Below, piece by piece: positions 1,560-23,107 of a stretch of DNA of 23,107 nt (the first letter of the stretch is position 1; each line of letters opens with the position of its first letter). The stretch spans positions 1 to 23,107 of the forward strand of contig USNJ01000009.1 in NCBI GenBank assembly GCA_900556055.1, given 5' to 3'. The notes under the pieces are model-generated. The model searched no databases, was not told where the DNA came from, and saw only the letters and a program-made list of their open reading frames with translations. This DNA comes from an uncultured Ruminococcus sp. GTDB taxonomy: Bacteria; Bacillota; Clostridia; Oscillospirales; Ruminococcaceae. The position numbers and the translations under genes are program-made.

Positions 1560-1925
1560 ATGGCTCAGAATAATGACCGTCTTGTTTATATAAAACTCAA
1601 GGAATGGCTTGAAGATGAGATACTTGCAGGCACATTCCCCGAAAATACGCAGATACCGTCGGCAGCGGAGCTTTCAGTCAGCTTTAAGCTCAATCATATT
1701 ACTGCGCTCAAAAGCGTGAACCTGCTCACTGAGGCGGATATATTATACAAAAAAAGAGGTGTGGGAATGTTCGTTGCCGAGGGGGCGGCGGAGAAAATAC
1801 GCAGCGAAAGGCAGAAGGAATTCTATGGAAAATATGTCCTGCCGATGGCTGCGGAGGCAAAAAAGCTGGGCATCTCAGCTGATGAACTTGTTAAGATGAC
1901 AGAGAGGGGTTATAAAGATGAGTGA
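1560..1925 (+). CDS. GntR-family transcriptional regulator, YtrA subfamily
   Basis: This 121-residue protein has an N-terminal GntR winged helix (about 8-75): RLVYIKLKEWLEDEILAGTF, IPSAAELSVSFKLNHITALK as the recognition region, then the wing KKRGVGMFVAEGA. Only about 45 residues follow, helical and without a ligand-binding FadR or HutC domain, which is the hallmark of the YtrA subfamily. YtrA-type regulators typically repress an ABC transporter operon of which they are the first gene and respond to cell-wall-active antibiotics or envelope stress. That role is inferred here. ATG 1560 follows GGAG with 11 bases between. Its 3' end overlaps the next gene's start by 8 bases, indicating translational coupling. 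It probably binds its own leader; the inducer is unknown. Confidence 0.9.
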   Translation: MAQNNDRLVYIKLKEWLEDEILAGTFPENTQIPSAAELSVSFKLNHITALKSVNLLTEADILYKKRGVGMFVAEGAAEKIRSERQKEFYGKYVLPMAAEAKKLGISADELVKMTERGYKDE

Positions 1926-2796
1926 ACTTATTATCGAAAATGTGACCAAAAAATATGGAAAGACCGTTATCCTGAACGATATTTCCCTGAAATTTGAGCA
2001 GGGACACTGCTACGGACTTCTCGGACGGAACGGTGCGGGAAAATCCACACTTATAAACATAATCGGACAGCGCTGCTCCAGAAACAGCGGAAAAATACTG
2101 CTTGACGGAAAGCCCGTTGACAATGACGACAAGCTTATGTCCGTAATGTTCTTCATGAGCGACAGATCGGTATATCCCGCGGATTTCAGGCTCAGCACGA
2201 TATTTTCAATAACCGAAGCAATGTACCCCAAATTCGACATGAAATATGCAAAAAAGCTTTCCGAGCTTTTCGGTCTGGAGCTGAAAAAACGTGTCGGCAA
2301 GCTTTCAACGGGTTATAACACGATCTACAAGGTGATACTTGCGCTGGCATCGGGTGCGGATTTTGTCTTTCTCGATGAGCCTGTTCTCGGCATCGACGTT
2401 AATCAGCGTGAGGCATTCTACCGTGAGCTGGCGGCAAAAATGAGCAGCTGCAATTCCTGCTTTGTCATATCGACGCATATGATCGAGGAAATCCAAAATC
2501 TTATCGACACTGTTATCGTCCTGCATAATGGAAAAATACTGCTGAACGGCGAAACTGAGGAGATCCTGACCGGATTTTCATCTGTCAGCGGAAAAGCGGC
2601 GCTCGTTGACAGCTTTACCGCCAATAAGAAGGTCATAGGCACGGAAAAAATGAGCCTGTTCAAAACGGCTGTTATTGAGGACGTTCCCGAGGATATCCCC
2701 GACGGACTGACCTGCGAGGCTGTGGATCTTCAGAAGCTGTTCTATTTCCTGACAGGCGGAGCACCCGATGCTGACAGAAAGGACAGCCGCAGATGA
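1918..2796 (+). CDS. ABC transporter ATP-binding protein, YtrB-like
   Basis: This 292-residue cytoplasmic ATPase energises the membrane proteins encoded just downstream. Visible motifs are Walker A GRNGAGKST (36-44), a degenerate signature LSTGY (129-133) in place of LSGGQ, Walker B FVFLDEP (149-155, catalytic E154), the D-loop region LGID, and the switch histidine in STH (H187). The region where a Q-loop glutamine is expected reads MFFMSDRSVY, with no Gln, as I recall for YtrB-like ATPases. A C-terminal extension of about 75 residues follows the core, as in BcrA/YtrB-type drug-efflux or resistance ATPases. The ribosome-binding site is GAGAGGGG before ATG 1918. It overlaps the next gene by ATGA at 2793-2796. 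The substrate cannot be deduced; antimicrobial-peptide or cell-wall-antibiotic resistance is the usual setting. Confidence 0.93.
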   Translation: MSELIIENVTKKYGKTVILNDISLKFEQGHCYGLLGRNGAGKSTLINIIGQRCSRNSGKILLDGKPVDNDDKLMSVMFFMSDRSVYPADFRLSTIFSITEAMYPKFDMKYAKKLSELFGLELKKRVGKLSTGYNTIYKVILALASGADFVFLDEPVLGIDVNQREAFYRELAAKMSSCNSCFVISTHMIEEIQNLIDTVIVLHNGKILLNGETEEILTGFSSVSGKAALVDSFTANKKVIGTEKMSLFKTAVIEDVPEDIPDGLTCEAVDLQKLFYFLTGGAPDADRKDSRR

Positions 2797-3599
2797 AAAA
2801 AAGAGATCTGTACAGCCTGGGTCTTGCAGGAGACTCTATCGAGCTGTTCGCCGCAGCAGCAATAATCATCCGCATGCTGGCAGCTATCGTTAATGTGTAC
2901 CAAATAGGTTCGGAACTGAATGTTTTCTCTGACGTGCCATTCAGCGATGTATATTCGGTGCTTATACTCTTTCTGGCAGGGGCATTCACGAACAGCAGAC
3001 ATATAAAGCTCGCCGCATCGGTAAATCTCATGCCGATAAAAAGAGTATTATCCATCACAGCTGCGGCAGTGACGCTCTCGCTGATATTTGCAATGTTTGA
3101 CATGATACTTGTCAAAGTCTATTTTGATGCGCTGGAGCCGGACCTTTTCAAGTTTCTCTCTTGGGAGGAACTTATTATAGCGCCCGAACAATCCCTCTGC
3201 GGATACGGCTCACTGCTGCTCTTCAGGCTCACAGCGATCTACGCATCGTTTTTTATCTCGGGATATTCTGTAAACCATGCTGTATTCAGCCGTCCTTATC
3301 TTATTGCGATGTGGATACTGCTGTTTATATTATTCGACAAATTAATATCTTATCATGATGAAAAAACCGTTGTTATTTCCATTATCGTCATGATGGTGAT
3401 AAACCTGCTCGCATATCTCACAGCGTCACCGCCGATATGGGGAATAACAATGATGTTTTACATAAACCTTGATGATATCACGCTTTCTGTGATCGGAACG
3501 GTGCTGGCGTTCTCAATGATCATTGCTTCAGCTATCCGCCTGCAGAAAATATCCGTATACAGACTGCCAATAGAACGAAGGAAGGAAGTTATCCTATGA
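2793..3599 (+). CDS. ABC-2-type membrane protein, first permease of the operon
   Basis: This 268-residue integral membrane protein has about seven hydrophobic segments, for example around residues 17-36, 52-66, 86-108, 145-165, 172-188, 196-213 and 231-248. There is no signal peptide and no recognisable catalytic motif. Its start overlaps the ATPase stop (ATGA), and its own stop overlaps the next start in the same way, so all three proteins should be made together. By position and topology it is one half of the membrane channel served by the upstream ATPase. I cannot place it in a named permease family, and the sequence is probably lineage-specific. Confidence 0.75.
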   Translation: MKKRDLYSLGLAGDSIELFAAAAIIIRMLAAIVNVYQIGSELNVFSDVPFSDVYSVLILFLAGAFTNSRHIKLAASVNLMPIKRVLSITAAAVTLSLIFAMFDMILVKVYFDALEPDLFKFLSWEELIIAPEQSLCGYGSLLLFRLTAIYASFFISGYSVNHAVFSRPYLIAMWILLFILFDKLISYHDEKTVVISIIVMMVINLLAYLTASPPIWGITMMFYINLDDITLSVIGTVLAFSMIIASAIRLQKISVYRLPIERRKEVIL

Positions 3600-4324
3600 A
3601 CAGATTTAAAGCCACGATGCTTTGCACATTTTCGCTGGAGTGCAAAGGCTTTGCTTTTCTTATCATCGCCGAAGTGTTTACAGCTTATAAGATGCTTTTC
3701 AGCTATATTGACAAGTACAATTTAACCGACATTATCTTATGCAGTGATGTTTTTATTGCAGCGATCCTGTTCCTTTTCGGAATATCGTTTTATCAGCGTC
3801 ATGATGCATTATGCACATCAAACGCTGTTTCAATGAAATACCGAGTTATCTCTCTTTCCATCGCTGTCGGAGTCGGCTGCACGATCGCCGCAGCAATGAC
3901 TGCCGCTGTGTATTCACTGCCTGAAATACAGCAGGATTATTCATTTTCAGTGCTGTTCAGAACCGTTGCCGCAGGCGGAGCAGCTGTTGTTTCCCCTATC
4001 GGCTCATTTGCGGAGAATCTTTTCTTTTATGTATCCATCGTATCCGTCGGCTGCTTTATAGGCAGTCTCAGAAGCAAAAAAGGAAGCGGCTTCACACTGC
4101 TTATGCTGATGCTTGCGGCAGCCGCATTATTCGGAATTGCCCTGCTTAACAGGAAATTTTCCACTCCGCTGCTATGGCTGGGTTCACTGCCCGCACTCAT
4201 GCTGCGCAGCCGCATCTCGGCAATTATCCTGAATATCATCATCGCCGCCGCTTCGCTTTATTTCGCAATTATTTTATCCTACGGCATGGACAGAAAAACA
4301 AGGAGGAAGAAACATGAAGCTTAA
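3596..4324 (+). CDS. ABC-2-type membrane protein, second permease of the operon
   Basis: This 242-residue membrane protein has six to seven hydrophobic stretches (about 19-36, 46-63, 83-107, 141-157, 168-184, 190-201 and 208-228) and a basic tail (MDRKTRRKKHEA) that fixes the C-terminus in the cytoplasm. Size and topology match the preceding protein, but the two are not obviously homologous, so the transporter would be a heterodimeric membrane part with a shared ATPase. Start ATG 3596 overlaps the previous stop (ATGA). Its end overlaps the following lipoprotein gene by 11 bases. Function beyond ABC-transporter membrane subunit is not visible. Confidence 0.7.
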   Translation: MNRFKATMLCTFSLECKGFAFLIIAEVFTAYKMLFSYIDKYNLTDIILCSDVFIAAILFLFGISFYQRHDALCTSNAVSMKYRVISLSIAVGVGCTIAAAMTAAVYSLPEIQQDYSFSVLFRTVAAGGAAVVSPIGSFAENLFFYVSIVSVGCFIGSLRSKKGSGFTLLMLMLAAAALFGIALLNRKFSTPLLWLGSLPALMLRSRISAIILNIIIAAASLYFAIILSYGMDRKTRRKKHEA

Positions 4325-4958
4325 AAAGACAGCCGCATTTATTATGGCAGCCGCCGTCTGCACTTCGTTATGCAGCTGCGAGATGCCCGAGACATCGCCG
4401 GAAGTGGAAAGCCGACTGTATGATCTTTATTCACGCAATGACGAGATCGTATCCTACACAAAAGTCAAAGGAAAATACAAAGATTTTGCCGAGTCATGCT
4501 TTGATAATATTGAGGTTTTCGGGGCAAATTTAACTGTTCCCATGAATGTCAGCGACCTGCCCGAGGGATTTTCATTAAGAGAAACCTCACAACAGATAAA
4601 TTACACAAGCGGCGTGAACATCACAAGCACAAGAATGTATTTTGAAGGCGCAAGAGCGTGCGATGTGGATATAATTTATCCCGAAGGCAAAACACCCGAA
4701 GACGGACAGATAGTTTCGCTTGAATTTGATGGCATGTTCGGTTTCCTTGATGACGATTTTAAAATGGGCGGCGAAAGCGGATATTTCAATATAGATAAAG
4801 CAACCGCACTCCTTGGAGAATGTGAGCGCAATACAATAATTATCTATGATCTTGGAGGAAACAAAAACATTACCTTTTACCTTGATCCAACAGACAGCGA
4901 AAAAGATGGGATCTATGCTTATTGGGTAACACTCTCTTGTATAGATTATATGTATTGA
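4314..4958 (+). CDS. Lipoprotein of the YtrA-type ABC operon, unknown family
   Basis: This 214-residue secreted lipoprotein has a basic start MKLKK, a hydrophobic stretch and lipobox LCSC, so C22 should be lipidated and the protein anchored outside the membrane. Two modules follow. Module 1 (about 65-140) contains LTVPMNVSDLPEGFSL and later IIYPEGKTPEDGQIVSLEF. Module 2 (about 145-210) contains GGESGYFNIDKATALLGE and ITFYLDPTD. The same modules recur in the next gene. I do not recognise the domain. Being encoded inside the transporter operon and exposed outside, it could be a binding, sensing or immunity subunit; this is inference. Start ATG 4314 lies inside the end of the previous gene, preceded by AGGAGG. 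Confidence 0.7.
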   Translation: MKLKKTAAFIMAAAVCTSLCSCEMPETSPEVESRLYDLYSRNDEIVSYTKVKGKYKDFAESCFDNIEVFGANLTVPMNVSDLPEGFSLRETSQQINYTSGVNITSTRMYFEGARACDVDIIYPEGKTPEDGQIVSLEFDGMFGFLDDDFKMGGESGYFNIDKATALLGECERNTIIIYDLGGNKNITFYLDPTDSEKDGIYAYWVTLSCIDYMY

Positions 4959-4985
4959 TACTGCATTTTCAAAGGAGATGAAACT

Positions 4986-6236
4986 ATGAAAAATTTCTTT
5001 TTTTCCGTGGCGGCTCTGCTGCTTATGGCAGTAATATTTATATCGGGAGGCTCGATCCTGCATTCTGGAGATATCATGGCAAAAGTAACGTCCGCAAGAA
5101 TTTCGGCAAATAAAAATTCAGATAAGATAACGAAAAGTGATCTTGAAAAATACAGCCGTGATACCTCTGCCCTTACGTTAGAACCGACTGAGCTTACCGC
5201 AGATATAATCAAAACGGTAGTTGTCAATGGAGAGAAATATGCGCTGCCTATAAGGGTCGGCGACCTTTCGGATAATTTTGTTTTATCGGTATATCATCAC
5301 GGAGAGCTCAACGAGAAAACTCAGAAATATAATGGACTTGCCCGACTGAGCTACAACGGCAAACCTATCGCATCGGCATCATATGAAAACAATATTCCCG
5401 AATTGACTGATGATGCTGTTATAACTGCGCTTCAGTTTAACAGCTCTGTCAATGAATATTTTCCGCAGGTGACCGCAGCAGGAATTGATGTCGGAAATGC
5501 CGATTTGCGTGAGATAAACCGTTTATACGGCTATGATTCAGATGAATACGGCTACGACAGATTTACAGCCGAAGACGGCGGCTCTGTTTATTTTATGAGC
5601 TTTTTACCCGGAGAAAATGAAGACCGCTCAGGTGTGAATCTGAGATTTTTAGAAGACAAAACAGAATTGACCAAACCCCGAGACATTTGCTTTTTTACAG
5701 ATAGTATAACATTGCCCGAAAATTACACAATAGAAAATGATATCGCAAACAGCCTTATGGAGTATGCTCCTATCCCCGAAAATAACGATAAATTTCATGA
5801 AGTAATGGATCTGATAACAAATGATGCCGGATTGCCGCAGCTTCCCTGCACTCTTAATGCGCTTATGAGCAGTTTAGGCGATGATGTATATTTTGACATT
5901 GATCCCGATGGCTATTGGGAAGATGAATTCGGAAAGTTTACCTGCAGCGGAGCAATAAAAAGCGATGAAGATAAGACAAAGTATATAGCTGTTGAGATAC
6001 TTTTCCCGCCCGATACACCTTTCGGAGATGCCCAAGTGACAGAAATAAACCTGGTCCTTGGATATAAAGCCGAAGAAGCACTTGATTTAGAAGGCAAAAA
6101 TCCCTACGGCTTTGTTTTTGACGATGATAACAGTTCAGACGATGCCCACCTGACAGATCTGAAATATAATAACATCTTAATATCAGGCTATCGTGCGACC
6201 ATACGTTACTGGTCAGAAAATACCGAAGAGCAATAA
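4986..6236 (+). CDS. Membrane-anchored extracellular protein with duplicated modules, unknown family
   Basis: This 416-residue protein has an N-terminal hydrophobic segment (about 5-25, no lipobox cysteine), so it is probably held in the membrane by an uncleaved anchor with the rest outside. Residues about 74-152 (KYALPIRVGDLSDNFVLSV, then DDAVITALQFN) and about 155-225 match modules 1 and 2 of the preceding lipoprotein. Residues about 280-360 (LPQLPCTL, then IAVEILFPPDTPFGDAQVTE) look like another copy of module 1. The composition is acidic. The gene follows the lipoprotein gene by 27 bases with AAGGAGATG upstream of the start, and it is the last gene before the operon terminator. No enzyme motif is visible. 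It probably works with the lipoprotein outside the cell. Confidence 0.65.
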   Translation: MKNFFFSVAALLLMAVIFISGGSILHSGDIMAKVTSARISANKNSDKITKSDLEKYSRDTSALTLEPTELTADIIKTVVVNGEKYALPIRVGDLSDNFVLSVYHHGELNEKTQKYNGLARLSYNGKPIASASYENNIPELTDDAVITALQFNSSVNEYFPQVTAAGIDVGNADLREINRLYGYDSDEYGYDRFTAEDGGSVYFMSFLPGENEDRSGVNLRFLEDKTELTKPRDICFFTDSITLPENYTIENDIANSLMEYAPIPENNDKFHEVMDLITNDAGLPQLPCTLNALMSSLGDDVYFDIDPDGYWEDEFGKFTCSGAIKSDEDKTKYIAVEILFPPDTPFGDAQVTEINLVLGYKAEEALDLEGKNPYGFVFDDDNSSDDAHLTDLKYNNILISGYRATIRYWSENTEEQ

Positions 6237-16370: not shown

Positions 16371-16397
16371 TTAGCACTCGAAGATAAAGAGTGCTAG
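16371..16397. promoter_or_regulatory. CIRCE operator for HrcA
   Basis: TTAGCACTC, nine bases, GAGTGCTAG matches the CIRCE consensus at every position except the last (A to G). HrcA repressor binds this inverted repeat and is released on heat shock or when GroEL is titrated. No hrcA gene lies in the window. Confidence 0.96.
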
Positions 16398-16763
<366 letters not shown>

Positions 16764-16783: not shown

Positions 16784-18433
<1,650 letters not shown>

Positions 18434-18440
18434 TAAATTC

Positions 18441-18618
18441 AGGCGGCGGGCGGGGAACCCCCGCCGGTATTCCGCAGTACGGCGCGGTAAACCGTCGCCT
18501 TACTATTGTGGAGTGAATAAACCAAGCGTCCGCGCGTTGGTACTTTTGATTTTTGTTTGATGGGAGAACTGCTTTTGCGGTTCTCCTTTTTTATTTTCAA
18601 GTGAACATCGACCGCAGA
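18441..18618 (+). repeat. Structured intergenic repeat, copy 1 (3' region of groEL)
   Basis: This segment is homologous over its whole length to 22894-23069 in the same orientation. The first 32 bases of the core (18478-18509) are identical to 22923-22954. CAAGCGTCCGCGC recurs at the same distance (45 bases on), and ACTGCTTTTGCGGTTC recurs 90 versus 91 bases on. It contains a GC hairpin (18445-18450 with 18460-18465), a second hairpin GGCG-CGG-TAAA-CCG-T-CGCC (18481-18499), and a terminator hairpin at the end. It has no coding capacity that I can support. It looks like a dispersed, RNA-forming intergenic element that here also supplies the groEL terminator. Confidence 0.85.
18563..18597 (+). 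terminator. groESL terminator, part of repeat copy 1
   Basis: GGAGAACTGC (18563-18572) pairs with GCGGTTCTCC (18577-18586) through ten pairs with one G-U, with a TTTT loop, followed by TTTTTTATTTTC. Confidence 0.88.
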
Positions 18619-18622
18619 TAAA

Positions 18623-18653
18623 AAAAGGGACTGCTTCAGAAACAGTCCCTTTT
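18623..18653 (-). terminator. Terminator of the MATE transporter gene
   Basis: AAAAGGGACTG (18623-18633) pairs perfectly with CAGTCCCTTTT (18643-18653). On the minus strand it is followed by seven Ts. It sits nine bases after the gene's stop codon. Confidence 0.88.
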
Positions 18654-18662
18654 AATTATTAT

Positions 18663-20024
18663 TTATGCGGAAACGCTCTGCCGGTTTGCGTTGTAATCGA
18701 AATAGAGCTTCTTCATTTTCGAGAAATATGTCAGGCAGAGGAGGATAACTGCGGCTATCCACGCTGTCGGGCTTGCTATGCATATCGCCATATATCCGAA
18801 ATGTCCGACAAGGAGGAATGCAACTGCCGTTCTTGCGGCAAGCTCGCACACGCCCGCCATCATCGGCAGGAGGCTGTAGCCAAGTCCCTGGAGCGAATTT
18901 CTCAGGATAAAAAGTATCGCAAGCACGGGGTAGAACATTCCGTTAATGCGGAGGAAGGTCTTTACGTCGCCGAGGATAGCGGTCTGATCCGCATCGATGA
19001 AAAGGAGGGCTATATACTGTCCGAGCAGTGCGACTGCGGCAAATGCGGCAGCACTGTAAATAAGCGTTACAATGGTGCTTTCCCTTATGCCCTGCTTTAT
19101 TCTCGGTATCTTGCCTGCGCCGAGGTTCTGTCCGCCGTAAGTAGCAAGAGTTACGCCCATCGTTTCCATCGGCTGCATTGCTATCATCTGTATCTTATTT
19201 GCCGCCGTAACAGCCGCAACGATTCCCGAGCCGAGCGAATTTACGGCGGTCTGGAGGATTATCGATCCGATAGCGGTTATGGAGAACTGAAAGGCCATCG
19301 GCAGACCTATTTTCAGGAGCGTTCCGCAGCACTGACCTTCGGGCTTCAGCTCCGACTTTGCAAATGTCAGTATCGGATATTTCCTTTTCATGTAGATCAG
19401 GCATAGCACCGCAGAAACAGCCTGCGCTATGACTGTCGCCCAGCCTGCGCCCGCACATTCCATCTTTAAGCCGACAACGAACAGGAAGTCCAGTGCGACA
19501 TTCAGAAGCGAGGCTATCGCAAGGAATATGAGCGGAGTGCGGCTGTCGCCCAATGCACGGAGGATAGACGCAAGAATGTTGTAAAGCATAGTTACAGCTA
19601 TTCCGCCGAAGATTATGATTATGTAGTCATATGCGTAATCTATGATATCATCGGGAGTTTTTGTCAGCACGAGCATATCTCTCGTGAATATCATGGTGAG
19701 CGTTGTCATCACGACGGTTATTATCACCGAGAGATAGAAAGCGTTTGCGGTGTGCTTTCTCATCGCCGAATAATCGCCTGCGCCGAACCGCTGGGCAACG
19801 GGTATCGCAAATCCGCTGGCACAGCCCGTAACAAATCCGATAACAAGGAAGTTTACAGCACCCGTCGAGCCGACAGCCGCAAGAGCGTCAACGCCTACGA
19901 ATTTGCCGACTATCATGCTGTCCACCATATTATAAAACTGCTGAAAGAGGTTTCCTATCAGCATTGGGATACAGAACTGAAGTATAAGTGTGAGGGGCTT
20001 TCCCTCGGTCATATCTCTTGTCAT
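18663..20024 (-). CDS. MATE-family multidrug/sodium efflux transporter
   Basis: This 453-residue protein has about twelve membrane helices in two homologous halves. It exports cationic drugs or metabolites in exchange for Na+ or H+. Family features are the opening LTLILQFCIPMLIGNLFQQF-type helix with YNMVDSMIVGKFVG, GFAIPVAQRFGAGD, ILRALGDSRTPL in the first half, and MQPMETMGVTLATYGGQNLG with ILRNSLQGLGYS in the second. ATG 20024 is chosen, not the longer TTG start at 20045, because AGGAGG lies seven bases before it and MTRDMTEGKP is a typical start. It is a single-gene unit with its own promoter and terminator. The substrate cannot be told from sequence. Confidence 0.94.
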   Translation of the reverse strand: MTRDMTEGKPLTLILQFCIPMLIGNLFQQFYNMVDSMIVGKFVGVDALAAVGSTGAVNFLVIGFVTGCASGFAIPVAQRFGAGDYSAMRKHTANAFYLSVIITVVMTTLTMIFTRDMLVLTKTPDDIIDYAYDYIIIIFGGIAVTMLYNILASILRALGDSRTPLIFLAIASLLNVALDFLFVVGLKMECAGAGWATVIAQAVSAVLCLIYMKRKYPILTFAKSELKPEGQCCGTLLKIGLPMAFQFSITAIGSIILQTAVNSLGSGIVAAVTAANKIQMIAMQPMETMGVTLATYGGQNLGAGKIPRIKQGIRESTIVTLIYSAAAFAAVALLGQYIALLFIDADQTAILGDVKTFLRINGMFYPVLAILFILRNSLQGLGYSLLPMMAGVCELAARTAVAFLLVGHFGYMAICIASPTAWIAAVILLCLTYFSKMKKLYFDYNANRQSVSA

Positions 20025-20069
20025 AAAAAGCCTCCTGACCGACAAAAAAATTCAATCAAAGCTTAGATT

Positions 20070-20098
20070 ATTTTATCCCGAAAGGCGGTCAATGTCAA
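20070..20098 (-). promoter_or_regulatory. Promoter of the MATE gene
   Basis: On the minus strand TTGACA (20098-20093), 17 bases, TAAAAT (20075-20070). The remaining part of the 20046-20360 gap holds no other feature I can support apart from the -10 box at 20322. Confidence 0.85.
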
Positions 20099-20321
20099 GA
20101 CATTTTATGCACAAATAAATTCATGCGCAAAGGTTTTCGGTTTGTCACTTTTCTGCGTTGTAAATCATCGTTTCACATATAAATAACAAAACGTACTTAT
20201 GGGGATTTTTTATGTTTATAAAGATAGCTATCGCCGTCAGCCGTATTTTTTGTGAACCCGGATTCTTGAACTGTTTACAAATGCATAACCGTCATAGGCG
20301 GATTATGTCGGGAAAATATAG

Positions 20322-20327
20322 TATAAT
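20322..20327 (+). promoter_or_regulatory. Probable -10 box of the lipoprotein gene
   Basis: TATAAT lies 33 bases before ATG 20361. No convincing -35 hexamer is seen at 16-18 bases upstream, so activation or a different sigma preference is possible. Confidence 0.45.
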
Positions 20328-20360
20328 CTTTTTATAAATATATGGGAGGTTATGCTATAA

Positions 20361-21062
20361 ATGAGATTCCGATCATTGGTTATTTTATCGCTGTGTATGT
20401 TTCTTTGCTCATGTTCGGCAGGGGCTGATACAAATGCAGCCGATGTTTCGGACACACCGGTATCAGCTGTATCGTCGGAGACAATTTCATCTATCCAAGA
20501 AACAACAACCCCGGGATCAGTGACTGAAACATCTCCCGAAACATCTGCCGAGGCGCAGAGCGAAGCAGTCACCAAAGAAAGCTATACGGAAACATCTGAG
20601 GAAAATACATATACCGATACAACCGTCAGCGATCCAATTACAGAGGTTACTTTGAACAGTGAAGATATCATGATTGAAACAACTTTTTCAAGGGCTGCTC
20701 CCGAGAACTTCAAAGGAAGCTTTTATATGTATTTGGGGAATTACAGTGCCGATCCCGAATTCTGGAGTTTTTATATTGAGTGTCTTGACGGTGATGCTCC
20801 CGTAAATGCTGTCAGAGACTTCATAGCCGAAAGACTCGAAAACGGTGAGTGGGTGAATGTTCCGCTGTTTGTTCCCGATGTTATCCTTGAGAATTCACTT
20901 TTGGGAACGATTATAGGAAAAGAACCGCCTACTCTGCAATTTTCAATCAGTGACAGCGATTTTGCAACCCCCCTTGAAAGCGGGCATTATCGTATAACCG
21001 TTATTGACACAAACGGAGTTTTTAACGGAGAGACTGTCAGCTGCGAATTTGATGTGCCGTAA
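20361..21062 (+). CDS. Lipoprotein with Ser/Thr/Glu-rich stalk and C-terminal Ig-like domain
   Basis: This 233-residue secreted lipoprotein has lipobox LCSC giving lipidated C18, followed by a low-complexity stalk (about 20-105) dominated by S, T, E and V. Such stalks hold a domain away from the membrane across the cell wall. The folded part (about 108-233) contains FKGSFYMYLGNYSADPEFWS and ends with LESGHYRITVIDTNGVFNG and CEFDV. This ending resembles the closing strands of bacterial Ig-like domains found in Firmicute lipoproteins (a GxYRI..., then ...EF pattern). No enzyme motif is visible. GGGAGG (20344-20349) precedes the start. It is a single-gene unit with a perfect terminator, and its function is unknown. 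Confidence 0.75.
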   Translation: MRFRSLVILSLCMFLCSCSAGADTNAADVSDTPVSAVSSETISSIQETTTPGSVTETSPETSAEAQSEAVTKESYTETSEENTYTDTTVSDPITEVTLNSEDIMIETTFSRAAPENFKGSFYMYLGNYSADPEFWSFYIECLDGDAPVNAVRDFIAERLENGEWVNVPLFVPDVILENSLLGTIIGKEPPTLQFSISDSDFATPLESGHYRITVIDTNGVFNGETVSCEFDVP

Positions 21063-21081
21063 TTATCTTTTATAACAATTG

Positions 21082-21116
21082 AAGCCGTCCATTTTCCAAT
21101 GGACGGCTTGTTTTTT
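21082..21116 (+). terminator. Terminator of the lipoprotein gene
   Basis: A 12-bp perfect stem AAGCCGTCCATT (21082-21093) with 21098-21109 has a TTCC loop and is followed by GTTTTTT. It also lies 20 bases downstream of the iscU stop on the other strand, where its U-run is weak, so it may end both transcripts but is built for the plus strand. Confidence 0.9.
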
Positions 21117-21129
21117 ACGGTCATATTCA

Positions 21130-21552
21130 TCAGTGGCAGCTTTCGCACTCGCCTATCTCGCCGACTATCGGCAGCGGGTCGATGCCCTGTCTGCTGTAAT
21201 AATCGGAAATAGCGGCTTTCATTGCCTGTTCCGCAAGGACAGAGCAGTGGAGCTTTACGGGCGGCAGACCGTCCAGAGCCTCAACTACTGCCTTGTTTGT
21301 CAGCTTCAGTGCGTCCTCAATAGTTTTGCCTTTGACCATCTCGGTAGCTATGGAAGATGTTGCTATCGCAGCGCCGCAGCCGAAGGTCTTGAACTTAACA
21401 TCGGTGATAACGCCGTTATCTATCTTCAGGTACATCTTCATGATATCGCCGCACTTTGCGTTTCCTACCTCGCCCACGCCGTCAGCGTTTTCTATCTCGC
21501 CGACATTTCTCGGATTTGCGAAATGGTCCATTACTTTTTCACTGTATAACAT
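21130..21552 (-). CDS. iscU: Fe-S cluster assembly scaffold IscU/NifU-like
   Basis: This 140-residue protein is the scaffold on which iron and cysteine-derived sulfur are built into Fe-S clusters. The three cluster ligands and the conserved Asp are present: C34-G-D36 (KCGDIMKM), C59 (FGCGAAIA) and C103 (LHCSVLAEQA). It starts with the family-typical YSEKVMDHFANPRNVG. A C-terminal tail ends in CESCH, with two more cysteines and a histidine. The gene begins two bases after the desulfurase stop, with its ribosome-binding site inside that gene, so the two are tightly coupled. No hscA/hscB or fdx follows in the window, as is usual for clostridial two-gene Isc operons. Confidence 0.96.
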   Translation of the reverse strand: MLYSEKVMDHFANPRNVGEIENADGVGEVGNAKCGDIMKMYLKIDNGVITDVKFKTFGCGAAIATSSIATEMVKGKTIEDALKLTNKAVVEALDGLPPVKLHCSVLAEQAMKAAISDYYSRQGIDPLPIVGEIGECESCH

Positions 21553-21554
21553 AG

Positions 21555-22748
21555 TCAGTTTCCTTTCTTTTCATCAGCCTTGATGCGTTCCCAGAGCGGT
21601 GACATTCCTCTTAATCTTTCGATAACGGGCGGGATAACGCTCAGGATATAATCAACATCTTCATCGGTGGTTTCGTCGGATATCGAAAGTCTCAGCGAAC
21701 CGTGAGCTATCTCATGCGGCAGACCGATCGCCAGCAGAACGTGTGACGGATCGAGCGATCCCGAAGTACACGCCGATCCGCTGGAAGCGCATATTCCCTG
21801 CATATCCAGCGAAAGCAGGAGCGACTCGCCCTCAACGCCCTCGAATGAGATATTGACATTTCCGCAGAGGCGGTTTTTCACAGTGCCGTTCAGGTGAGCA
21901 CGTTCGATCTTTGTAAGCTCGCTTATCAGTCTGTCTCTTTTGGGCGTTACTCTTGCCTGCTTGCCGGGAATGTCGGAAACAGCGATCTCAAGAGCCTTTG
22001 CAAGACCGACTATTGCAGGAGTGTTTTCTGTGCCTGCACGCTTTGAACGCTCCTGACCGCCGCCGTTTATAAGGTTCGGGAGATTTATCCCCTTCTTAAT
22101 ATACAATATGCCTATGCCCTTCTGCGCATGAATTTTATGTCCGGAAAGAGACATCATATCTATATTCTGTTCTTTGACGTTTATGGGGACATTTCCGACA
22201 GCCTGAACGGCATCTGTGTGGAAGAGAACGCCTTTTTTCCTGCATATCCCGCCTATTTCGGGGATAGGGTTTATCGTGCCGATCTCGTTATTTGCGTACA
22301 TCACGGTAACGAGTGCGGTATCGTCACGGACAGCCTTTTCGAGCTGTTCAAGGGAGATATTACCCTCCCTGTCAACGGGGAGATAGGTCACTTCAAAGCC
22401 TTCTTTTTCGAGTACGGCGCAGGTATGGAGGACTGCATGATGTTCAACAGCTGTCGTGATGATATGTTTTTTACCTTTTGCTGCGAGCTTATGAGCCGTG
22501 CCGAGGATAGCCCAGTTATCCGACTCCGAGCCGCCGCTTGTGAAATATATCTCGGATGGTTCGCAGCCGAGGGAAGCGGCGCAGGATTCTCTTGCGGTTT
22601 CGACAGCACGTTTAGCATCTCGTCCGAGTTTATATATAGAAGAGGGGTTTCCGAACTGTTCTGTGAGGTATGGCATCATAGCGTCCAGAACGGGGGCGGA
22701 TATTTTAGTCGTAGCGGAGTTATCCGCATAGACGAATTTTTTTTCCAT
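21555..22748 (-). CDS. iscS: Cysteine desulfurase, NifS/IscS type
   Basis: This 397-residue PLP enzyme removes sulfur from cysteine, giving alanine and an enzyme-bound persulfide for Fe-S assembly on the scaffold encoded next. Visible are the N-terminal [10 protein letters not shown], the EHHAVL motif that stacks on [12 protein letters not shown], the PLP-lysine segment [12 protein letters not shown], and the active-site cysteine loop [17 protein letters not shown], which is of group I type. I choose ATG 22748 ([14 protein letters not shown]): AGGA lies 9 bases upstream, whereas the ATG at 22757 directly abuts that site, and the longer open frame runs into the promoter. A sigma-A promoter with a palindrome between its boxes lies at 22803-22831. 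Confidence 0.96.
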
Positions 22749-22802
22749 GTTTATCATTCCTTTCGGGGAAATACAAGATATATCATTTCCGATATTGTCT
22801 AT

Positions 22803-22831
22803 ATTATACACCTGTTTAGTAGGAATTTCAA
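22803..22831 (-). promoter_or_regulatory. Promoter of iscS-iscU
   Basis: On the minus strand TTGAAA (22831-22826), 17 bases, TATAAT (22808-22803) preceded by TG. The leader is about 48 bases. Confidence 0.85.
22811..22823. promoter_or_regulatory. Candidate Rrf2-type (IscR/CymR-like) operator in the isc promoter
   Basis: The minus-strand sequence CCTACTAAACAGG is an imperfect palindrome (CCTnnTnAnnAGG) filling the spacer between -35 and -10. Rrf2-family regulators of Fe-S and cysteine genes bind related palindromes in Firmicutes, and a site here would block RNA polymerase. No rrf2 gene is in the window, so this is a position-based inference. Confidence 0.35.
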
Positions 22832-22861
22832 TACCCTTAAAAAAAATTTACAATCTGCGGG

Positions 22862-22927
22862 GTGCGGCGTCCGCACTGTTTTTTCGCGATACGGTGGGGA
22901 CACCCCCACGGGTTTTTCGCGATACGG
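22862..22927 (+). repeat. Tandem hairpin units with 15-base direct repeat
   Basis: TTTTTCGCGATACGG occurs at 22880-22894 and again at 22913-22927, a period of 33 bases. Each copy is preceded by a perfect 6-bp hairpin: GTGCGG-CGT-CCGCAC (22862-22876) and GTGGGG-ACAC-CCCCAC (22894-22909). Each unit therefore looks like a hairpin followed by a T-run. The second unit runs straight into the long repeat that starts at 22923. Confidence 0.8.
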
Positions 22928-23069
22928 CGCGGTAAACCGTCGCCTTACTATTGTTTAGGGATATAGTCAAGCGTCCGCGCAAAGGGGACTTTAGCGTTTT
23001 GTTTGTGGAGCGCACTGCTTTTGCGGTTCGCCTTTTGCTTTTTATGTTCAGGTGAACAGCAGCCACAGA
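22894..23069 (+). repeat. Structured intergenic repeat, copy 2
   Basis: This is the same element as at 18441-18618 and in the same orientation: GC hairpin (22894-22909), identical 32-base core (22923-22954) with hairpin GGCG-CGG-TAAA-CCG-T-CGCC, CAAGCGTCCGCGC at 22968-22980, and a terminator-like hairpin (23010-23018 with 23023-23031) followed by TTTTGCTTTTT. Relative to copy 1, the last hairpin has an A-T pair replaced by C-G, which preserves pairing, and one mismatch. It points away from iscS towards sequence beyond the window. The final 38 bases of the window (23070-23107) show nothing recognisable. Confidence 0.85.
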
Positions 23070-23107
23070 CCCGCACCAGAAACTAAAAAGTTCGCCAGCC
23101 TTTTCAA

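Follow-up and report, generated by a model that had tools for sequence, protein, structure and literature searches.

Two homologous elements between unrelated genes

The stretch of DNA analysed here (23,107 bases; hereafter, the window) contains two related segments, both situated between genes, which we treat as copy 1 and copy 2 of a small element rich in hairpins. Copy 1 has groEL (16805-18433, + strand; Cpn60_TCP1 domain) as its left neighbour and is separated from the groEL stop codon by 15 bases. To its right lies a gene for a MATE transporter (18663-20045, - strand), which is convergent with groEL and at whose end a terminator-like hairpin on the - strand (18623-18653) adjoins the element. 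Copy 2 is flanked on its left by a class V aminotransferase frame (21555-22811, - strand), which reads away from the element and is succeeded on the same strand by a NifU-like gene. Since an 11/12 promoter match on the - strand is found near the start of this frame (22831-22803), the true aminotransferase start probably lies somewhat inside the listed frame. According to the list of open frames, no likely + strand gene enters copy 2 from the left, and 38 bases separate its end from the end of the window (23107). The domain assignments come from Pfam scans that took in 24 distinct open reading frames (ORFs) of the window out of the 82 listed.

The two copies, which lie 4.4 kb apart in the same orientation, are homologous, with a resemblance far beyond chance. 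Their best local alignment, which delimits the two copies (Table 1), attains a score of 153; dinucleotide shuffling of both intergenic stretches, repeated 1000 times, gave scores that averaged 18.9 and never exceeded 33. The alignment used for counting spans 177 columns, with gaps of 1, 1 and 5 bases, and shows 80% identity (34 mismatches in 170 ungapped columns). The similarity extends about 20 bases beyond the tail of the terminator-like hairpin at the end of the element, to 18618 and 23069, and then ends among unrelated genes, which argues for a duplication at the level of DNA. The end-to-end alignment with identical 32-base cores, described in an earlier interpretation based on the letters of this DNA (the sequence-only reading), is thus confirmed, as is its statement that the flanking genes are unrelated, with groEL and the convergent MATE gene on one side of the comparison and the aminotransferase gene on the other.

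The differences between the copies are unevenly distributed. The longest identical run, the 32-base core, would be improbable if the same differences were scattered randomly (P = 0.0037), and the variance of the mismatches over 15-column windows is likewise elevated (P = 0.04), so that the core is better conserved than the remainder of the element. This pattern argues against an old, one-off duplication of an intergenic stretch followed by neutral decay, in which the hairpins would be ordinary terminators and no family would exist. That explanation is otherwise in line with the presence in the window of exactly two copies, identically oriented and separated by 4.4 kb.

Table 1. Coordinates of the two copies of the element and of their constituent parts in the window
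Feature	Position	Strand	Basis
Copy 1 of the element	18449-18618	+	Local alignment to 22893-23069
Copy 2 of the element	22893-23069	+	Local alignment to 18449-18618
Identical 32-base core, copy 1	18478-18509	+	Alignment
Identical 32-base core, copy 2, containing H2 at 22926-22944	22923-22954	+	Alignment
H1 hairpin (unit 1), copy 1; 7 pairs, loop AAC	18449-18465	+	Fold, hairpin scan
Outer helix round H2, copy 1; 18468-18479 with 18504-18515, 12 pairs	18468-18515	+	Fold
H2 hairpin (unit 2), copy 1; 4+3 pairs, one bulged T, loop TAAA	18481-18499	+	Fold
H3 hairpin, copy 1	18521-18541	+	Fold
H4 hairpin (18562-18587) and T-rich tail, copy 1; intrinsic-terminator-like	18562-18597	+	Terminator scan, fold
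Additional hairpin unit immediately before copy 2, GTGCGG-CGT-CCGCAC, with a T run behind it; absent from copy 1	22862-22876	+	Hairpin and terminator scans
Linker TTTTCGCGATACGG, first exact occurrence	22881-22894	+	Pattern search
H1 hairpin, copy 2 (unit 1, GTGGGG-ACAC-CCCCAC)	22894-22909	+	Hairpin and terminator scans
Linker TTTTCGCGATACGG, second exact occurrence	22914-22927	+	Pattern search
H4 hairpin, copy 2; two broken pairs	23008-23033	+	Fold; absent from terminator scan listing

A modular array of hairpins in the 5' half

The 5' half of the element is modular, a point absent from the sequence-only reading. A scan for perfect hairpins with 6 or more pairs, G or C at 5 or more of the 6 arm letters, and a loop of 3-7 bases returned three distinct hairpins in the whole window, all of them located in one of the two copies or in the unit upstream of copy 2. 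In shuffled windows (n = 60), the mean is 1.9 such hairpins and the maximum 6, so that three is an ordinary number; the placement of the three is not, because three or more fell within 18441-18618 and 22856-23069 with P = 0.0005 in 2000 shuffles, these stretches having been picked after the hairpins had been seen. Copy 2, taken together with its upstream flank, comprises three units, GTGCGG-CGT-CCGCAC (22862), GTGGGG-ACAC-CCCCAC (22894) and GCGCGG-TAAA-CCGtCGC (22927), whereas copy 1 comprises two, namely GCGGGG-AAC-CCCCGC (18450) and the GCGCGG unit that it shares with copy 2 (18482). The units follow each other at distances of 32, 33 and 32 bases, and the extra one is situated at the 5' edge. 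Moreover, the 14-base linker TTTTCGCGATACGG has exactly two exact matches in the window, both of them at copy 2; in copy 1, it is altered. A difference in the number of such units between the copies is another feature that a single duplication with neutral decay accounts for poorly.

Across the four distinct units, positions 2 and 4 of the six-letter arms vary, and the opposite arm is complementary each time. When the identical H2 unit is counted once and its bulged T is omitted, only one of the 24 possible assignments of arms to arms preserves all pairs. The register of the units was set by hand for this comparison, as the program alignment of the units left the arms out of line. Four units are few, and the pairing of their arms may be maintained at the level of either DNA or RNA.

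Another hairpin array was noticed in a viral-contig locus (L061, 1519-1801), downstream of a groEL gene whose product is 79% identical to that of the window. In it, short perfect hairpins with differing arms are separated by an AATTCA/TGAATT linker that recurs, and a pair of similar terminator-like hairpins flanks the whole; the architecture is that of the element in the window, but the letters differ.

Predicted structure and covariation

Copy 1 is predicted to fold with -70.5 kcal/mol (z -5.2), a value reached by 0 of 200 shuffles, whereas copy 2 together with its upstream unit yields -75.0 kcal/mol over 196 bases (z -2.8), with 1 of 200 shuffles as good. As the structure was derived from copy 1, the pair counts are biased towards this copy. 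Of its 45 pairs, 37 are preserved in copy 2, including three in which both sides have changed (one of them from A-T to T-G) and three with a change on one side that still permits pairing. The remaining eight pairs are broken: H3 loses three, H4 and the outer helix of H2 two each, and H1 one. Conservation is highest around the core, where the H2 hairpin is identical in sequence and its outer helix retains 10 of 12 pairs. In H3, the tip GCG(TCCG)CGC (18526-18535) is preserved, with loss of three of the five outer pairs, and the H3 region of copy 2 folds little better than shuffles (z -1.2). For H4, the predicted energy changes from -18.8 kcal/mol (z -8.1) in copy 1 to -11.8 kcal/mol (z -1.8) in copy 2.

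When the same substitutions are placed randomly, 0.8 compensated pairs are expected, compared with the 3 observed (P = 0.04), and 10.3 broken pairs, compared with the 8 observed (P = 0.20 for eight or fewer). The excess of compensated pairs is a further argument against a single duplication with neutral decay, but the number of broken pairs is close to that expected without constraint and thus in its favour. Taken together, the covariation between the copies is suggestive rather than strong. Both examples put forward in the sequence-only reading are found in the pair count: the pair 18565/18584 is A-T in copy 1 and C-G in copy 2 (23011/23030), and the first GC-rich hairpin keeps pairing despite its altered sequence, with a C-G pair replaced by T-A and one other H1 pair broken. 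The compensated pairs are therefore real; the general claim of covariation needs to be toned down, given that 8 of the 45 pairs are disrupted, which the sequence-only reading does not mention.

Terminators, promoters and a possible transcript

Terminator-like sites are enriched around both copies, with 4 sites compared to 0.4 expected in 18300-18800 and 8 compared to 0.6 expected in 22650-23107. Three of them lie within copy 1 and seven within copy 2 and its upstream unit; all face the + direction, and several correspond to the same hairpin. The H4 hairpin of copy 1 (18562-18587), with its tail, has the form of an intrinsic terminator, in which a GC-rich stem is directly followed by a T run. 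By contrast, the same terminator scan does not list H4 of copy 2, so that the terminator appears to be intact in copy 1 and decayed in copy 2.

A simple scan for the sigma-70 consensus, which defines the types of promoters covered here, detected no + strand match inside either copy or, from position 18300 onwards, before copy 1. Within the stretches scanned, the only + strand match upstream of either copy is weak (9/12, 22729-22757); about 105 bases separate it from the hairpin array of copy 2. Sigma-70-like matches in these stretches are about as numerous as in shuffles (1 compared with 0.9 and 2 compared with 0.7 expected). These results bear on the possibility that the segments are two copies of a gene for a trans-acting small RNA that has conserved loops in its hairpins and a terminator of its own. 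Such a gene would be in accord with the favourable folding of copy 1 and the position of copy 2 ahead of 199 of 200 shuffles, the unchanged loops of H2 and H3, the terminator-like H4 of copy 1, the concentration of conservation in the core and the weak promoter-like match before copy 2. However, since there is no + strand promoter match in the copies, the sole upstream match is weak and the matches are as frequent as in shuffles, a trans-acting small RNA is less likely. Its case is further weakened by the start of copy 1 15 bases past a stop codon, the poor folding of copy 2 around H3 and H4 (z -1.2 and -1.8) and the continuation of the similarity beyond the terminator. The small-RNA option raised by the sequence-only reading retains the weak promoter-like match as a point in its favour but lacks a good promoter among the sigma-70 matches, and we regard it as quite improbable.

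The position of copy 1 directly after groEL, together with its strong terminator-like hairpin and the + orientation of the hairpin and T-run sites inside the elements, would also fit a cis-acting 3' end or insulator cassette that is selected at particular genes (the end of groESL and the gap beside the aminotransferase-NifU genes) and is not mobile. This idea is difficult to reconcile with copy 2, which is not preceded by a likely + strand gene, and with the results for other groEL loci described below; we consider it slightly less probable even than a small RNA.

Search for relatives

Rfam 15 gave 0 matches in the window at the gathering score, so at this level the impression that the element matches no named family stands. 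With E values of up to 5, there were 26 sub-threshold matches round copy 1, the foremost being the adjacent terminator (18623-18660), and one round copy 2 (E 1.1). Among 84,980 species genomes (257 Gb), in which about 7 chance matches to an 18-mer are expected if bases are random, the 18-base sequence from the core was found once, in a Cryobacterium record inside an open frame of 469 codons, and this lone match is unrelated to the element. Either the source species lies outside this set or its representative lacks the core in exact form; none of the related species included has it in that form. As for the host, the window GroEL (P0122) occurs on two contigs and P0123, identical at printed precision, on 83 contigs of up to 334 kb; GroEL proteins of the nearest species are 93-94% identical, and the closest named one in the protein search, with 94% identity, comes from a metagenome-assembled genome of a Ruminococcus sp. 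(P0134), and the host appears, on this sequence evidence, to be Ruminococcus-like.

In viral contigs, the core 18-mer and three further patterns had 0 matches each, while a 15-mer, a 16-mer and a terminator 16-mer retrieved 45, 11 and 50 loci, respectively. BLASTN of both copies against all 188 loci retrieved (47 at E 1, 11 at E 0.5, 80 at E 1 and 50 at E 0.01) produced matches of at most 35 bases at 80% identity; where a locus had two matches, these were more than 700 bases apart and out of register. The loci with groEL were 80 of the 541 found, and BLASTN detected nothing like the element in these 80, the two nearest of which encode GroEL proteins with 77-79% identity and some of which end soon after groEL; within these bounds, this result speaks against a cassette tied to the groESL end. 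A covariance model was applied to the window and to 21 of the 188 loci. In one of these, L031, which had been picked as holding the core 15-mer, it recognized a similar core hairpin (15.9 bits, E 0.048). This hairpin lies between two open frames, the remainder of the element being absent, and we take it as chance. Among plasmids and phages, copy 1 had no match at E 1, and copy 2, searched at E 10, matched one plasmid and 17 phage records over 19-30 bases (E 3-9). The plasmid, phage and viral-contig matches are all short and at chance level. Together, these searches add the lack of relatives in the collections examined to the points in favour of a single duplication.

A hidden coding frame was considered, as one frame of the - strand runs without a stop through the core of each copy (in copy 2 at 22848-23066, - strand), but was rejected: among 5.8 billion proteins, none of fitting length shares three 5-residue words with the translation of copy 2, and the 1-base and 5-base gaps between the copies shift the frame between their parts. 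Among the papers listed by a limited search of the literature, short of a full survey, none dealt with such repeats in Ruminococcus, and we know of no described family of small interspersed structured repeats in this genus. A text search with pieces of the sequence turned up a 12-base match to an enterobacterial repeat in one paper, which we regard as a coincidence.

A probable structured intergenic repeat with a proposed action in cis

The window carries two homologous, modular elements in intergenic positions, with hairpins and T runs that face the + direction. We favour the view, with a probability of about 0.52, that both derive from a small, BOX/REP-like intergenic repeat of modular, structured build, which spread as DNA in a Ruminococcus-like lineage and acts in cis on transcripts reading into it. 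The element probably represents a new family of small structured intergenic repeats. Its plan comprises a 5' array of short GC-rich hairpins at steps of 32-33 bases with a shared linker, then a constant middle section and lastly a terminator-like hairpin. Folded within any transcript that reads into it, the element may stop or trim that transcript. Behind groEL, copy 1 would supply the groES-groEL message with its 3' end and stop transcription, while copy 2, because no likely + strand gene precedes it and its H4 is weakened, may either do nothing or block stray transcription from the aminotransferase promoter region. Further copies may well exist elsewhere in the genome, and the element may move, or may have moved, by means of a transposase supplied elsewhere or by recombination; it is solely the likeness to the BOX and REP families that suggests the involvement of such a transposase.

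The situation of copy 2 close to the end of the window provides an indirect sign of further copies. The window is most likely a whole contig, a point likewise absent from the sequence-only reading, as the longer of the two contigs on which its GroEL is listed has exactly its length of 23107 bases. Copy 2 would then stop 38 bases short of the contig end, and repeats commonly break short-read assemblies. This position, which is not proof of additional copies, nevertheless counts against a single duplication, and we consider that explanation doubtful on balance, albeit a possibility to be taken seriously.

Several observations weigh against a mobile repeat family. Only two copies have been seen, with no third one in the 23-kb window, whether searched with an 18-mer at up to 3 mismatches or with the covariance model to E 10, and the 84,980 species genomes lack the exact 18-base core save for the unrelated Cryobacterium match. 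There is no transposase domain in the 24 ORFs scanned of the 82 listed, and no target-site duplication could be established. A role in 3'-end formation leaves copy 2 unexplained, as no likely + strand gene lies before it, and the contig may end at this point for a different reason, for instance because GC-rich hairpins were poorly covered. Finally, with up to 3 mismatches allowed, the linker has 6 matches in the window, compared with 2.9 expected (4 of 100 shuffles have as many); since the four inexact matches are at chance level, only the two exact ones carry weight. The dispersed family envisaged by the sequence-only reading nonetheless remains the best reading, given the homology, the unrelated flanks and the modular units, even though its known membership stands at two.

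It is tempting to go one step further and to speculate that the element belongs to a mobile, orientation-locked repeat family of the Oscillospiraceae. Each insertion would combine a terminator with a series of covarying hairpins, adjustable in number, and provide the upstream transcript with a ready-made folded 3' end, whose strength would be tuned by the number of units. We regard this extended proposal as unlikely in its full form. Small interspersed structured repeats shape the ends of messages and the rearrangement of genomes. If more copies exist, they would form a natural series of hairpin arrays that differ in unit number before the same terminator-like end, enabling a direct test of the effect of the array on mRNA 3' ends. 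If there are only two, they represent an ordinary duplication.

Other features of the window

Upstream of groES (16479-16763), the window contains the sequence TTAGCACTC-N9-GAGTGCTA (16371-16396), which is consistent with the CIRCE operator of HrcA. At the left end of the window, there are two overlapping open frames, 3-467 and 464-1051, the second of which has an RE_endonuc domain (PF19778), whereas the first, scanned from position 6, has no Pfam match; a single restriction gene may have been divided here by a frame change. In the region 1560-6236, genes for a GntR-type regulator and an ABC ATPase precede four open frames (2793-6236) with no Pfam match at E 0.001. Between the MATE and NifU-aminotransferase genes lies an open frame (20361-21062, + strand) that yields only a sub-threshold Ig-like match (Big_14).

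Comparison with known repeat families

The BOX elements of the pneumococcus, described as composite intergenic repeats made up of boxA, a variable number of boxB and boxC (PMC3049150), provide a close parallel in build. They share with the window element the composite intergenic nature, the strong fold if transcribed and a proposed effect on co-transcribed genes, and perhaps the variable number of tandem units. BOX elements have fixed end modules with variable internal units and many interspersed copies. The window holds two copies with unrelated flanks, one with three units and the other with two; the extra unit sits at the 5' edge, and the element ends in a terminator-like hairpin. The two kinds of element were compared by description, not by sequence. 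The same report describes SPRITEs, interspersed pneumococcal repeats shaped as Rho-independent terminators; these consist of one 18-bp duplex and a uridine-rich part, whereas the window element has several hairpins before its terminator (PMC3049150).

REP sequences are described as palindromes with a GTAG or CGTC tag, which in some families is degenerate at the second and third letter (PMC3733652). The window units resemble them and the composite BIMEs in being short GC-rich palindromes with short loops and complementary arm changes, clustered outside genes (PMC3733652, PMC2817692). However, reading by eye revealed no GTAG or CGTC tag at the foot of the five window units. On the + strand, TACG precedes three of them, and CGGG and GCGG the other two; the nearest approach to GTAG on the - strand is GTAA at unit 2, one letter off. 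In addition, the window units share one orientation, whereas those of BIMEs are reported to alternate, and no RAYT transposase was seen among the ORFs scanned. The phyla that PMC3733652 names as hosts of REPs, as far as its text was accessible, do not include the Firmicutes, and the window element comes from a Ruminococcus-like host.

The bcr1 repeats of the Bacillus cereus group, a 167-bp stem-loop family, are similar to the window element in length, intergenic position and possession of a predicted common structure, but 31 copies of bcr1 are tabulated, compared with the two seen here, and this comparison, too, is by description, not by sequence (PMC2267715). That survey of structured repeats in 40 bacterial genomes defined 92 families, 67 of them previously undescribed (PMC2267715). 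Against this background, the window element appears to belong to none of the families testable here and, at the same time, to work in much the same way as BOX, SPRITE, REP and other structured repeats.

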